Shown here in pieces: positions 9,942 to 50,661 of a stretch of DNA of 64,000 nt. The stretch is from Arthrobacter antibioticus. GTDB lineage: Bacteria > Actinomycetota > Actinomycetes > Actinomycetales > Micrococcaceae. Position numbers and translations under genes: made by a program. The stretch's first letter is position 1, and every line of letters begins with the position of its first letter. The stretch is taken from the NCBI RefSeq assembly GCF_030063205.1, contig NZ_JASISQ010000001.1, forward strand, positions 423,152 through 487,151, read 5' to 3'. The notes beneath the pieces are model-generated. The model was not told where the DNA came from, made no database searches, and saw only the letters and a program-made list of their open reading frames with translations.

Positions 9942-10033
9942 CCGTGACACTGGGATAGGCTCTGCTTTTGAGCTGTGAAAAGCTAGCGCACAAAAAGTCT
10001 TGTTCACCATTGAGATACTGGGGTTCTCCAACT

Positions 10034-10966
10034 ATGCGCACAGACACTAAACACGCAGGTAATAAGAGCAATAGCTACGTAGTTGCTTACCTTTTCATCG
10101 GCGTAGCGGCGGCCATCGCAGGATTCTTGCCATGGCTCGTTACGGGGATGCGTCTGTCGCTGCAGAACCTCTGGGCAACCAGTACCCCACCGGGTCAAAT
10201 GCCAATATCACTTCTCCCCTTTAGCCAGTACATGCTTACTCTTATTGCCGGGCTCATCATCACGGGATCGGCCATTGCTGGAGGAATTCTACGCCTGAGA
10301 CGTTCACGACTTCCCCGCTTTGGCGCCACGGCAGCGGTCATTGGACTCTTGGGTGTGCAGCTTGCCGCCACGCTCCAGGCCAGCCTGACGGTATCAGCCG
10401 GATTACTGGATAACCAGGCCGCTGAGCTTTACCTGTCTGCACTATTAGCGGGCACAATTGCCTCCATCATGGTTGGCGTCCTGGTCCTGTTCCTTATTTC
10501 GCGTGCCCCTGCCTCCGGTGCTGTGATCGGAGCAAGCTTCGCCGCCGTGGCCCTCGCACCATGGCTTAGAGCACTCCTCATACCGCTCAATGACGTGACA
10601 ACGTCACCGAACTCCTTCACGCTTGGTCTGATCCACTGGTTCCCGGCCGTTGTAGTGGGGCTGGCGATTGCCTGGTCGGTCTCCATGTCAACAGCTCGTT
10701 TGCTTGCTGCAGGATTCAGCCTCATCGTGCTGTGGTTTGGACCTGCCCTGTTCGCCGCTATCAGTATTGCCGCTGGCAGTCGTGTCCTTGCCTATCAGCC
10801 CGCTGAAATGGCGAAACTCGGTGCAAGCTCATTCCTGAACTTCATAGACTACCGTTCAGGCTCATTGGCCCCATTGGTTGTGGCCGCAGCAATAGCCACT
10901 GCCGGTTCTATTTGCCGCTCACTTTTCAAGAAGTTCAACCGCTCATCATCCGTCTCGCCTGCCTAG
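10034..10966 (+). CDS. Multi-pass membrane protein of unknown function
   Basis: 310 residues from ATG 10034 (MRTDTKHAG); the frame is open 22 codons further up, but no ribosome binding site supports an earlier start. I count about eight hydrophobic helices, the first around FIGVAAAIAGFLPWLV and the last around LVVAAAIATAGSICRSLF, with short polar loops and a basic tail KKFNRSSS. I recognise no family and no catalytic motif. It is the plus-strand gene immediately upstream of the candidate retron RNA, ending 155 bp before the a1 arm. That leaves open whether it is a neighbour or part of that system. Confidence 0.7.
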   Translation: MRTDTKHAGNKSNSYVVAYLFIGVAAAIAGFLPWLVTGMRLSLQNLWATSTPPGQMPISLLPFSQYMLTLIAGLIITGSAIAGGILRLRRSRLPRFGATAAVIGLLGVQLAATLQASLTVSAGLLDNQAAELYLSALLAGTIASIMVGVLVLFLISRAPASGAVIGASFAAVALAPWLRALLIPLNDVTTSPNSFTLGLIHWFPAVVVGLAIAWSVSMSTARLLAAGFSLIVLWFGPALFAAISIAAGSRVLAYQPAEMAKLGASSFLNFIDYRSGSLAPLVVAAAIATAGSICRSLFKKFNRSSSVSPA

Positions 10967-10985
10967 CCCGGGGCCTGCCTCGCCC

Positions 10986-11015
10986 GGGGTATCCGGGTAG
11001 CGGGGGTATCCGGGT
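10986..11015. repeat. Direct repeat of GGGGTATCCGGGT upstream of the retron RNA
   Basis: Two perfect 13-bp copies occupy 10986-10998 and 11003-11015 (17-bp period). The core GGGGTATCC is the reverse complement of GGATACCCC at 11175-11183, inside the candidate msr region. The repeats lie in the 155-bp gap where a retron promoter would be expected. Confidence 0.8.
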
Positions 11016-11121
11016 CCGCGCCGATCCCTACTGTGGAGCCGGCTGCTCTCGCCCCGGGGCGCCGAGACTGCCACCGCGACATCTCTGCACGTCGGCGCAC
11101 GCATCGGTTACCGTGGATTCA

Positions 11122-11284
11122 GGTGAAGGTCTCCCGACGAGGTGGAGAGGCACATGTTGGGCTCTCCTCTCCGGGGATACCCCGGGGCACGCAGTATTGC
11201 TCGAGCAAGCACCGCGAGTGGGTCTCTGCGCTTCGCGCAGCAGCCCACCCGCACCGACAGATGAGTCGTCTTGAGGCCTTCACC
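11122..11284 (+). ncRNA. Candidate retron msr-msd RNA
   Basis: An outer inverted repeat joins GGTGAAGGTCTCCCGACGA (11122-11140) to TCGTCTTGAGGCCTTCACC (11266-11284): 16 Watson-Crick pairs plus one G-T over 19 positions, with two central mismatches. This matches the a1/a2 stem of retrons. Inside are a 7-bp hairpin (11144-11150 with 11166-11172), GGGG-ATA-CCCC (11173-11183), the 12-bp palindrome TTGCTCGAGCAA (11197-11208) and a long terminal hairpin with 6+6 pairs around a 2x2 bulge (11218-11248, loop TTC). The last is the natural msd stem. Guanines 11141-11142 just after a1 are candidates for the branch nucleotide. The RT start codon follows 37 nt after a2. Structure was read by eye; ends are approximate. 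Confidence 0.68.
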
Positions 11285-11321
11285 GTCCTATTGCGGCACC
11301 ACGAAGGGATGGCATCGACCC

Positions 11322-12740
11322 ATGGTCCACAGCCAGGCCCACGGCACGGACTCGGAAACGGCCAGCCGAGACGTTCCAGGCGGCCATTTCCATCTCCGTG
11401 GCCATACCCCTCACCCGTCGTCGGCAACCGTAGCAGCGGCGCTGGCCCACGCATTCTTAGCCGCCCCGGCGTGGACCGCTGACGGGCTAATCGCTGCTGG
11501 TACGCAAGTTTTGGGTGTCCGACGGCGATGGCTGGGACCGCTGGTGAGTTCAGTCATCGGCGCTTATCACTACAAGCCTGCCGACGCTCCCCGCGAACTC
11601 GCAGCCTACATTGGCCAAAGTGATTCCTTCGCCGGAGCGGTCGCTAAGGCCCTCACCCAGCGAAAGCCTCTACGGATAGCGCGTTACGTACTCGCCGAGC
11701 CCGAGCAACGCCAAGGAACCCACCCCGTTCCAGCCATTGCCGGGCTTGCACAATTAGCTAGAGTTCTGGGACTGACGCTGGGTCAATTGGAGTGGTTTGC
11801 CGATACCGGCCACTGGAATCGGCTCGCTGGCAAGGGGCCTCTTCAGCATTACCGGTACAAATGGCTAGTGCGTCCGGGCAGAACGCCACGGTTGTTGGAA
11901 ATTCCAGGGCTGCGCCTGCGGGCAATCCAGCGCAAGGTTTTGCAGGAACTGCTGAGCCCTCTCCCCTTACACGACGGCGCTCACGGTTTTGTCCCCGGCC
12001 GCAGCGCGGTCAGCGGAGCCACCCAACATGTAGGCAGTGACACTGTCATTTCACTGGATCTAACGAGTTTCTTTGCCACAGTCACCGCTGGCAAAGTGTT
12101 CGGGATCCTGCGGCAGGCCGGCTATCCAGAAGCAGTGGCTCATACCCTAACTGGTCTAAGCACCCATGTAGTTCCACCATGGGTCATCACGTCAATGCCA
12201 GCCGGAGGAAGCTCCGCTGAACGATTTGCTTTAGCGCAGTCATTGCGGATTCCCCATCTGCCACAGGGCGCACCTGCGTCTCCCATGTTGGCCAACCTGG
12301 CACTACGACGACTGGATTCACGGCTCCAAGGTTGGGCTGAGAAGGCAGATACGCGTTATACGCGCTACGCCGATGACCTGAGTTTCAGCGGCGGTACTTC
12401 GTTGATTCAACGGGCAGACAGCTTCATTCGTGGCGTGAGCGTGATAGTTGCTGACGAGGGACACCTGCTCAATGAAAGAAAAACGCGGGTGCGCTCGGCC
12501 AGTACCCGTCAACAGGTCACGGGCATTGTGGTGAACCAGCGTACCAATATGCCCCGCCGCGACTTTGATGCCTTGAAAGCTACCCTGCACAATTGCGTGG
12601 TGCACGGCCCAGAAACTCAGAACCAGGCTGGGCACACGGATTTTCGTGCCCACTTGTTGGGCAGGATCACGTGGCTTGAGTTCCTCAACCCCACTCGCGC
12701 AATACGCTTGCGCCGGGACTTCGAGAAGATTCGCTGGTAG
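11322..12740 (+). CDS. Retron-type reverse transcriptase, Mx162-like group
   Basis: 472 residues from ATG 11322. An in-frame TTG at 11271 lies inside the a2 arm and was rejected; GAAGGG at 11303-11308 is the nearest binding site. RT motifs in order: AHGFVPGRSA, catalytic D246 in VISLDLTSFF, PQGAPASP (314-321), Y349-A-D-D352 with LSFSG, and VTGIVVN (from 399), the retron hallmark. About 150 residues precede the RT core, ending LGLTLGQLEWFAD; from memory this layout matches the myxobacterial Mx162 RT. No maturase, endonuclease or fused effector domain is visible. The enzyme should prime from the 2'-OH of its own RNA and make msDNA. Retrons of this type are usually antiphage systems, but the partner here is not evident. 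The gene ends 50 bp before a dispersed repeat. Confidence 0.93.
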   Translation: MVHSQAHGTDSETASRDVPGGHFHLRGHTPHPSSATVAAALAHAFLAAPAWTADGLIAAGTQVLGVRRRWLGPLVSSVIGAYHYKPADAPRELAAYIGQSDSFAGAVAKALTQRKPLRIARYVLAEPEQRQGTHPVPAIAGLAQLARVLGLTLGQLEWFADTGHWNRLAGKGPLQHYRYKWLVRPGRTPRLLEIPGLRLRAIQRKVLQELLSPLPLHDGAHGFVPGRSAVSGATQHVGSDTVISLDLTSFFATVTAGKVFGILRQAGYPEAVAHTLTGLSTHVVPPWVITSMPAGGSSAERFALAQSLRIPHLPQGAPASPMLANLALRRLDSRLQGWAEKADTRYTRYADDLSFSGGTSLIQRADSFIRGVSVIVADEGHLLNERKTRVRSASTRQQVTGIVVNQRTNMPRRDFDALKATLHNCVVHGPETQNQAGHTDFRAHLLGRITWLEFLNPTRAIRLRRDFEKIRW

Positions 12741-12785: not shown

Positions 12786-12835
12786 AGTGAGCGAGCGTTA
12801 GCAAAAATACGACGTGAAGTGAGCGAGCGTCAGGG
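12786..12835. repeat. Dispersed 50-bp repeat (REP-like), copy A
   Basis: AGTGAGCGAGCGTTAG, an AT-rich spacer, ACGACGTGA, then AGTGAGCGAGCGTCAGGG. The same 50-bp layout with four differences recurs at 50612-50661. Each copy carries the 14-mer GTGAGCGAGCGTYAG twice. It lies between the retron RT and the convergent NUDIX gene. Confidence 0.85.
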
Positions 12836-44113: not shown

Positions 44114-45652
44114 CTAGATCTCGCTTGGAACGTGTTGATGCGGTGCCGCAAAAAAATCCACCTCGTACTGTACAGAATGCGCAAAGGCGGCCCGCATACG
44201 TTCTCTTTCCAGGGCCGATCCCCTGCGCGCGGCCGTATCCATGATGCTCACGGCTGTGGCCGCTGCCTGAGCAAAGTCGTCGTCGGCGTATGTCGCCAGC
44301 CACGTGCCATAGGGATGTTCGCCCGAAAAGGATAGGTAATCGGCATGCAGCACACGCCCCACTTCTGCGTACAGCCAGTAACACGGAAGAACTGCGGCAA
44401 CCACTTCCGCATAGCTGCCGGAGAATCCAACACCTTGCAAATGGTCCACGTAGTGCTTTGTCACCGGGCCCTGTTGCGGATTTGCGGGCTGCCCATTGAG
44501 CCAGTTGCGGTGCAGCTGCAATTCAACTTCAAGACAATTCTGTGCCCCTTCCGCCCAGAACTTCTGCTCCATTTCGGTTGGGGCCAAGGAACTGGCACGG
44601 GCAAGGACACGCGAGTATGCGCTCAGGTACAGCGCATCCTGAACCAGGTAATAGGCAAAGTGGTTGCGTTGTAACGTACCGGCGGCTAATTCCTTAATGA
44701 ACTCAAGAGCGAAAATTGCTTGTCGTTGGGGTTCGATGTGCGCCCACAATGCTGCACTGAATTGCCCGACTCCAGGCGCTGCGTTCTCCCACAGTGCGTG
44801 CAGGTGGTTGACGGGGCCTGCACCGGAGCCAACCTCTAGCACCTCGGATGTCTCAAGGGCCCTACCCAGCCACTCCTTGGCTTGCTGGACGCTGGCAATC
44901 CAATCACCAGTTTGAGCCTGCAAAGTAGCCACTGCCGCCGACAATGAGCACCCGGTTCCGTGAGTATTCACGGTATCTATCCGAGCGCCAATGAACTCAT
45001 TGACCACACCGTCAGGGTGAACCAGTGCGTCGGGGCACAGCTCCCCCGCCAAGTGCCCGCCCTTCACGAGCACCAACACCTCATGAGTCGCGGCCAGCTC
45101 CTTACCCTGCTGAACGGCGGCCTGCCAGCTTGCAGCTTCCGGTTGGTCAAGGAGAACCCCTAGCTCTGGGAGATTCGGAGTCACTAGGTGCGAACTTTTG
45201 ATGAGTTCCAGTAAAGCTTCACGGGCGGCCGGGGCCACAAGCATGTCACCGCTGGTAGCCACCATGACCGGGTCCAGTACAACCACGGCGGGCCGGGTCC
45301 GCGCCAGCCACTCTCTCACCGCGTTGATGACTTCTTCAGTGCCAAGCATGCCGATCTTCACGGCATCTATGGTGACGTCGGAAGCTACAGCGTCCAGTTG
45401 GGCTGTGAGGAAAGTTGCCGGTGGAGTATGGATGTCTTGTACTCCCCGCGTATTCTGCGCAGTTAATGCCGTAATGGCAGTCATTGCATATCCACCGTGG
45501 GCTGAAATAGATTTAATGTCAGCCTGGATACCGGCACCGCCCGATGAATCAGAACCTGCAATACTCAGGATCCGGGGGTGCTTCACAGCTGCGGGCACGG
45601 TGGTGCGTTGCCCAGTTTCAGAGGTGGAAGAAACTGTTGCGTAGGTACTCAA
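44114..45652 (-). CDS. ThiD-TenA fusion: HMP(-P) kinase plus thiaminase II
   Basis: 512 residues. The N-terminal ribokinase-fold ThiD domain (about 26-285) shows [36 protein letters not shown] and [12 protein letters not shown], and phosphorylates hydroxymethylpyrimidine for thiamine synthesis. The C-terminal TenA domain (about 300-512) contains [12 protein letters not shown] and [11 protein letters not shown] with the catalytic cysteine, and YADDDFAQ; TenA salvages aminopyrimidine from degraded thiamine. Start is TTG 45652; the AAGGGA binding site is the end of a TPP riboswitch, so translation is probably thiamine-controlled. Fusion of salvage and phosphorylation in one chain makes a salvage channel plausible. 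Confidence 0.95.
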
Positions 45653-45657
45653 TGGGA

Positions 45658-45738
45658 CATCCCTTCGCCGGTTCTAACCGGGCAGGTTCAACGGGTATTC
45701 TCTCAGCCAGCCCTGATGGCATGGCACCCCGTGTCGAT
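45658..45738 (-). promoter_or_regulatory. TPP riboswitch (THI element)
   Basis: On the minus strand: ACACGGGGTGCC, then GGCTGAGAGAATACCCG with the conserved CTGAGA, then TTGAACCTGCCCGG and TTAGAACCGGCGAAGGGA. All conserved boxes are in order. Its 3' end is the ribosome binding site of thiD-tenA (AAGGGA, 9 nt before the TTG start), so the mechanism is most likely translational. Thiamine pyrophosphate binding should lower expression. Confidence 0.95.
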
Positions 45739-45850
45739 CTCCACCCTAGCCCCAGCCGTGACGCTTAAAGAAAACCGGCCCAGAGCCAATGTCAAAAACT
45801 GCGTTCTGCACGCACATTTTAACGCAGGTTCCGGGCCGGCAGTGTCAGCA

Positions 45851-50531: not shown

Positions 50532-50661
50532 CCGACGCTCGCTCACTTAACGTCGAGTTTCATCAAACGCTCCTTCAGGTATGAAGGAGCGTTTGATTCT
50601 TAAGCCCCAGGAGTGAGCGAGCGTCAGCGAAAACACGACGTTAAGTGAGCGAGCGTCAGGG
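50532..50661. repeat. REPIN-like inverted pair of the dispersed repeat (copies B and C)
   Basis: Copy C, CCGACGCTCGCTCACTTAACGTCG-type sequence at 50532-50555, is inverted relative to copy B at 50612-50661; only the right half of the 50-bp unit is present in C. Copy B differs from copy A (12786-12835) at four positions. Two inverted REP-like sequences flanking a hairpin resemble a REPIN, and sequence conservation over 38 kb shows the element is mobile or homogenised. It occupies the space between VKOR and ndk. Confidence 0.8.
50562..50597 (+). terminator. Terminator of the VKOR gene
   Basis: Positions 50562-50577 and 50582-50597 are perfect 16-bp complementary arms with a 4-nt loop GGTA, 40 bp after the VKOR stop. 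It sits inside the inverted repeat pair. Confidence 0.85.

Follow-up and report, generated by a model that had tools for sequence, protein, structure and literature searches.

Retron-Eco1 (Ec86) is, by both sequence and fold, the best relative among solved structures of the reverse transcriptase (RT) described here. In Ec86, the RNA lies before the RT, its a1 and a2 arms pair into a stem, and a G directly follows a1; the same arrangement is seen at our locus, which occupies positions 11122-12740 of a 64,000-nt stretch of DNA from Arthrobacter antibioticus (the window). To our knowledge, typed defence retrons have a partner gene or a fused effector domain. The myxobacterial retrons Mx162, Sa163, Mx65 and Ne144 have an N-terminally extended RT, as is found in the window (PMC6868368). 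Since putative retrons in Actinobacteria are mentioned in the same source (PMC6868368), the kind of element is already known. The literature that we searched, which leaves the main retron surveys outside its coverage, contained no paper on the present RNA/RT family, and priority may lie elsewhere.

We conclude that 11122-12740 is very probably a genuine retron, made of an RT gene and an upstream msr-msd-type RNA, these two being its only visible parts. In sequence and anatomy the locus answers to a retron, with a branched msDNA as the predicted product. Comparison with other genomes identifies the element as a member of a widespread family in actinobacteria and Burkholderia rather than a one-off. 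A first-pass annotation of this DNA had proposed a retron with an msr-msd-type RNA directly upstream of the RT, and the proposal is supported by a covarying a1/a2 stem and by the RNA at 43 of 44 RT loci. For the RNA, it is the comparison with relatives, and not the inverted repeat of the window by itself, that decides the matter.

The reverse transcriptase and its N-terminal region

The retron RT, of 472 aa, is encoded on the forward strand at 11322..12740, from a putative ATG start, and is recognised by Pfam (RVT_1), PADLOC (RT_other) and AlphaFold/Foldseek. The open frame runs from 11271 to 12740 (489-aa ORF). The ATG at 11322 is the likely start, because relatives from the genome collection (n=3) align only from residue 44-47 and because it is the sole in-frame start codon between 11274 and 11420. 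The motifs YADD, PQGAPASP and VTG reported by the first-pass annotation are all there, the frame holding RYADDL, LPQGAPASP and, in region Y, QQVTG. VTG varies in some relatives, in which it reads VTN, VTS or LGG. In region X, where retrons have NAXXH, the window RT has GATQH against NATPH in Ec86, the first residue being different.

Profile and structure searches agree on the nature of the protein. RVT_1 is the sole Pfam domain over the cut-off (3.9e-15), and the PADLOC scores of the window RT are 582 bits for RT_other (3.5e-175), 545 for RT_outgroup and 281 for RT_XIII. Eight RTs of the family (from the window, two same-family genomes, Tsukamurella, Dietzia and three Burkholderia) have RT_other or RT_outgroup as their best PADLOC profile, with most of the protein covered and with scores far higher than for any typed retron profile. 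An AlphaFold model of the product of 11400-12737 (446 residues, pLDDT 91.6) has, in Foldseek, retron RTs as all of its first 18 matches, Ec86 being first (E 5.1e-19), ahead of group II intron RTs. PADLOC, NCBIfam (with matches below its cut-offs) and Foldseek thus all rank retrons first.

The RTs of the family are under purifying selection: dN/dS for eight pairs lies between 0.08 and 0.22 by NG86, and between 0.08 and 0.26 by YN00 in six of them. A 51-row tree separates the 47 rows of the family, with 100/99 support, from four other RTs, although these four sit on long branches. The RT tree follows host taxonomy in part. Other families group, while the genus of the window falls into two groups, with rows from two Microbacteriaceae and from another genus interspersed. 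This mixed host placement makes some transfer likely.

The N-terminal region (11400..11747, forward strand) precedes the RT core and is helical in the predicted model, whose 116 residues include five helices, all between residues 8 and 87. Its pLDDT is 87, falling to about 55 in the last ~20 residues. A comparison with solved structures (PDB) gave no match below E 3.2. Among 147 related genomes, the region occurs once in each of 22; 20 of these occurrences are at already-known RTs, and the remaining two (G789 and G824) are in frames of 546 and 519 aa.

The upstream RNA

The RNA is preceded by a promoter -10-like hexamer, TACCGT (11109..11114, forward strand), seven bases 5' of a1, whose position is conserved across loci. 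A TANNNT hexamer ends 0-12 nt before the start of the RNA model in 36 of 47 loci, compared with 1.7% of random positions of the same loci; it overlaps the model start by one base in 5 loci and is missing in 6. The 47 are the window, 41 of the other 42 RNA-bearing context loci and L183-L187, the same-species copy (L071) being omitted. Since the hexamer stands at a fixed place before it, the RNA is probably the first part of the transcript.

The a1 arm (11122..11140) and the a2 arm (11266..11284), both on the forward strand like the rest of the RNA, pair over 19 positions, of which 16 are Watson-Crick, one is G-T and two are mismatched, so that the 163-nt block bracketed by an inverted repeat is as first described. 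Compensatory changes occur in 14 of 18 modelled pairs. The first base after a1, G11141, is the candidate branch guanosine, its position matching that of the branch G of known retrons. It belongs to a GAGG motif that is invariant in 26 of 26 aligned sequences (alignment A1); several more distant members have GAGA or GAGC after a1, and in the Burkholderia RNAs (n=3) the a1 arm is followed by AA and then GCAC, which gives AAGC, nearer the classic branch motif.

Two msr hairpins follow. Hairpin 1 (11144..11167) has compensatory changes in 7 of 9 modelled pairs, with 86.9% of cells paired. Hairpin 2, CUCCGGGG-AUA-CCCCGGGG (11169..11187), is nearly invariant, with 100% of cells paired in 26 sequences; 6 of its 8 pairs are constant and the other two show no change of both partners together, so its pairing is judged from form, and its CGGGGCUACCCCG is present in Burkholderia too. 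In the linker (11188..11213), which would hold the 3' end of the DNA, the consensus pairs only the final three bases, with 11141-11143. This short helix (11141-11143 with 11211-11213) is weakly supported, two of its pairs being invariant and the third broken in 6 of 26 sequences; the predicted pair G11141-C11213 never varies in the 26.

Beyond the linker lies the msd stem (11214..11252), with the tip CTGCGC-TTC-GCGCAG. All pairs of the outer stem (7/7) show compensatory changes, and the four tip pairs, with zero variation in 26 sequences, are again read from form. Of the four hairpins originally counted, three are conserved, namely hairpin 1, hairpin 2 and the msd stem with its tip. The fourth, within 11188-11210, is seen in the single-sequence fold and is absent from the consensus fold, in which this stretch is unpaired. 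The 5' end of the DNA is predicted opposite 11265, because this is the base 5' of a2. The largest RT-DNA consistent with this anatomy would be 77 nt (11189..11265, reverse strand), and the shortest plausible one 53 nt (11213-11265).

Upstream of the promoter, CCCGGGGTATCC (10983-10994) is the reverse complement of part of hairpin 2 (11175-11186 region) and is the second-best repeat of the upstream inverted-repeat scan.

Taken by itself, the repeat of the window is weak evidence, since its inverted-repeat score is reached by 8 of 200 dinucleotide-shuffled versions of 11000-11399. When the same test was applied to 44 upstream stretches (20 shuffles each), no shuffle was as good in 29, and at least one was in 15. 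The fold of 11100-11300, a check suggested by the first-pass annotation, came out better than its shuffles (z -3.46, 0/200). RT relatives were drawn from the genome collection (3 loci), 395 same-family genomes and 394 genomes of the class. From the 44 upstream stretches scanned for the inverted repeat, 36 were extracted and 26 aligned in A1. Left out at extraction were the duplicates L006 and L020, together with L003, L023-L025, L037 and L045, in which the scan had missed or misplaced the repeat; these six were later found RNA-positive by the model (as L003, L068, L069, L025, L082 and L090). Left out of A1 from the 36 were the near-duplicate L008 and the nine distant L036, L038-L044 and L046.

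Of the 49 pairs in the consensus fold of the 26 aligned blocks, 29 show compensatory changes. Both partners are changed in 173 cells against a shuffle mean of 51.8, and none of 500 shuffles is as high. The covarying parts are the a1/a2 helix, hairpin 1 and the outer msd stem. Because compensatory changes in relatives exceed all 500 shuffles, we take the RNA structure to be real. Sliding the pairing partners by 1-3 columns lowers paired cells from 95% to 40-49%, a control that is flattered, the structure having been derived from the same 26 sequences. Rfam has no family at threshold in the RNA region, with two chance-level matches (E 1.9 and 2.3), and over five relatives it gave one unrelated match (E 0.55).

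Distribution of the element and history of its site

A covariance model (R1) built from the 26 aligned sequences finds the RNA at 43 of 44 RT context loci, including the window and the same-species copy, and including 11 from six other families (L081-L091) that lay outside the model's input. The first-pass annotation had pointed to relatives that lack the a1/a2 pairing as evidence to look for against a retron; the RNA at 43 of 44 loci and the change on both sides in 14 of 18 a1/a2 pairs are what we found instead. In all 42 loci measured (the window's own excepted), the RNA is on the strand of the RT and ends 15-343 nt before the RT match. At the lone RNA-negative context locus, L092 (G028), the RT match begins at residue 130. 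Four loci with distant RTs (L048-L051) have no match to the RNA model.

The association holds across whole genomes. Of 395 same-family genomes, 48 match the RT at E 1e-20 or better. The RNA occurs in 37, each of which has an RT match as well, partial in G292. Among those with an RT match below E 1e-120, 36 of 37 have the RNA. Two RT matches in the family are short: G292 (residues 337-446) has the RNA, and G096 is without it. In nine same-family genomes with distant RTs (26-34% identity), the RNA was not found. The class sample has 18 of 394 genomes with an RT match, 14 close and four distant. There, a genome-wide scan with a strict filter finds the RNA in 10 of the 394, all ten with a close RT; the other four close-RT genomes yielded it by locus search (L088-L091, E 7e-9 to 2.4e-6), and the four genomes having only a distant RT gave no RNA. 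Among plasmid relatives, the best 5 of 177 matching records all carry the RNA (E 6.6e-12 to 2.6e-5); they are three Burkholderia (39-43% RT identity), one Tsukamurella and one Dietzia. A mobile or phage origin was considered and set aside, since the collections examined showed no close relative: the best 80 of 170 viral-contig relatives are 24-35% identical, and 12 phage records 24-29%.

In the window, the RT sits between a CoA-ligase-like gene and a Nudix gene, and G239 has it in this position too. In G270, only ~90 nt separate what can be aligned of the flanking CoA-ligase-like and Nudix genes, and neither the RT nor the RNA has a match in that gap. G277, the nearest relative without an RT match, has ~1.5 kb of unmatched DNA at the site. 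In G096, 234 bp of the RT 3' end are left at the same site (L212 7257-7490, 68% identity); the RNA was not found in this genome (best 12.5 bits, E 0.56), and the remnant suggests to us that retrons have been lost within the genus. Of 23 genomes of this genus, 5 lack the RT or retain only a remnant of it. From these empty, remnant and occupied sites, the element looks old at this place and repeatedly lost.

Among ORFs of at least 80 aa at the 44 loci, the RT has no recurrent neighbour family other than what looks like local synteny. Two candidate partners were rejected. The first, a 332-aa ORF beside the retron on its upstream side (9968-10966), has no Pfam match, and among the 44 contexts its family recurs in the same-species genome alone. 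The other is the commonest family after the RT itself (found somewhere in 13/44 contexts), ABC-transporter-like by eye, which is convergent and directly downstream of the RT in six loci of one genus and was read as synteny. The printed neighbours of four loci are housekeeping-like by eye. Typed defence retrons (I-XIII) are marked by a conserved partner gene, of which the 44 loci gave no sign, or by a fused effector domain, and the window RT has no such Pfam domain over the cut-off.

Just 3' of the RT lies a pair (12787-12801 and 12819-12833) of a dispersed repeat, GTGAGCGAGCGTNAG, which is also found in the window at 50532-50546 (reverse strand, one mismatch), 50613-50627 and 50645-50659. The genome has 18 exact copies, and 14 of these form pairs with a spacing of 32, 64 or 128 bp; the pattern read backwards has 0 copies, and shuffles of the window have 0.02 on average. 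The window also contains a TPP riboswitch (45643-45741, reverse strand, 61.3 bits).

Proposed function and comparison with known retrons

The anatomy of the locus, together with established retron biochemistry, suggests how the element might work. Transcription would start just 5' of a1, at the putative promoter, and the a1/a2 stem and hairpins 1 and 2 would be bound by the RT. The RT would prime on the 2'-OH of G11141, begin copying at 11265, proceed leftwards across the msd stem and come to a stop within the linker. The product would be a branched RNA-DNA with ~53-77 nt of DNA, bearing a GC-rich hairpin and presumably staying bound to the RT. For the function we favour a defence-like RNA-DNA-protein complex and propose, at somewhat less than even confidence, that in it the N-terminal helical domain of the RT takes the place of a separate effector. 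This functional part of our explanation is weak, because no partner gene was found, whereas a typed defence retron has one or carries its effector as a fused domain. With no visible partner, the N-terminal domain would do the effector's work, or the partner would be elsewhere, or the role would not be defence.

A partner elsewhere would mean that the retron works with an unlinked effector and only looks partnerless. We think this unlikely: the 44 loci show no recurrent neighbour and yet the RTs are under purifying selection, as such an arrangement would have it, while the neighbourhood differs between lineages, which makes a fixed unlinked partner less expected. A domesticated retron with a role outside defence, its RT-DNA hairpin binding or titrating a DNA-binding protein, is conceivable and in our view rather doubtful. 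It would suit the invariance of the four msd tip pairs, the sharing of TGCGC-N3-GCGCA with the three Burkholderia RNAs and the partly vertical inheritance in the RT tree. However, this tip is found in just 33 of 47 RNAs and is missing in most of the distant actinobacterial ones, and CTGCGC-N3-GCGCAG has one site in the genome beyond the retron, so that no target set is visible; the absence of the element, or its presence as a remnant only, in 5 of the 23 genomes of the genus also counts against such a role.

Two further readings would deny the locus its activity or its identity. That the retron has decayed and is inactive in this strain is very improbable: the genus does contain the truncated RT of G096, but the RT frame of the window is open over its full length with YADD, the RNA scores 152 bits, and G128, of the same species, has a near-identical RT and RNA. 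Even harder to credit is a DRT- or group-II-like RT beside an unrelated cis-regulatory RNA. The profile matches to Drt2 and to group II maturases that would favour it are weak and all below the cut-off, whereas retron profiles and structures score far better (the NCBIfam retron matches being also below their cut-offs), and the RNA has the a1/a2 stem, the conserved G and the msd anatomy; all 42 loci measured have it on the RT's strand and 5' of the RT. The reading that we prefer remains a retron of two visible parts, in which the N-terminal region could be an effector of unknown kind.

What the analysis adds is a concrete element in place of an RT group that was catalogued merely as 'other' or 'outgroup': its RNA is defined, its copying start is predicted, and a covariance model recovers it in several families and in a second phylum. 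The function of a retron is hardest to guess when no partner gene is visible. In addition, actinobacterial genome editing could make use of such a compact RT and RNA, which come from a high-GC Gram-positive host.

Set against described retrons, the element is recognisable and distinct. The RT of Ec86 is shorter (~320 aa) and ~24% identical to that of the window in the structural alignment, and its structure was solved with a partner effector, according to the structure title. The DNA of Mx65 is ~65 nt. Its branch motif, GAGC, is near the GAGG of the window (PMC6868368). In the list of branch motifs that this source gives for characterised retrons, TAGC, CAGA, CAGC, GAGC and ACGC appear and GAGG does not (PMC6868368). 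Mx162, to which the first-pass annotation had likened the locus, has a 241-nt transcript, a 162-nt msd and CAGC (PMC6868368), against a 163-nt span, a predicted DNA of at most 77 nt and GAGG in the window. The label 'Mx162-like' is therefore weak, the comparison being with the published description of Mx162: the extended N-terminus of the RT is common in kind, and the priming motif and DNA size differ.

In PADLOC-DB, RT_other (PDLC02949) and RT_outgroup (PDLC03740), the profiles on which each of the eight RTs scores best, bear names that specify neither a retron type nor a partner gene. The next-best profile for the window RT, which is also the best typed one, RT_XIII, reaches 281 against 582 bits and aligns only from residue 144. 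PADLOC is described as also including msr-msd covariance models (PMC9252829). The family might form a separate partnerless retron type of Actinomycetota and Burkholderia, in which a single protein would do all the work, its N-terminal five-helix domain being an effector held in check by the small RT-DNA, an idea that we regard as speculative and on balance unlikely. The 'single gene' retron types of PADLOC are likewise single proteins, with fused TIR, protease or Toprim effectors; if the idea is true, an N-terminally placed effector of no known fold would be new for single-protein retrons.
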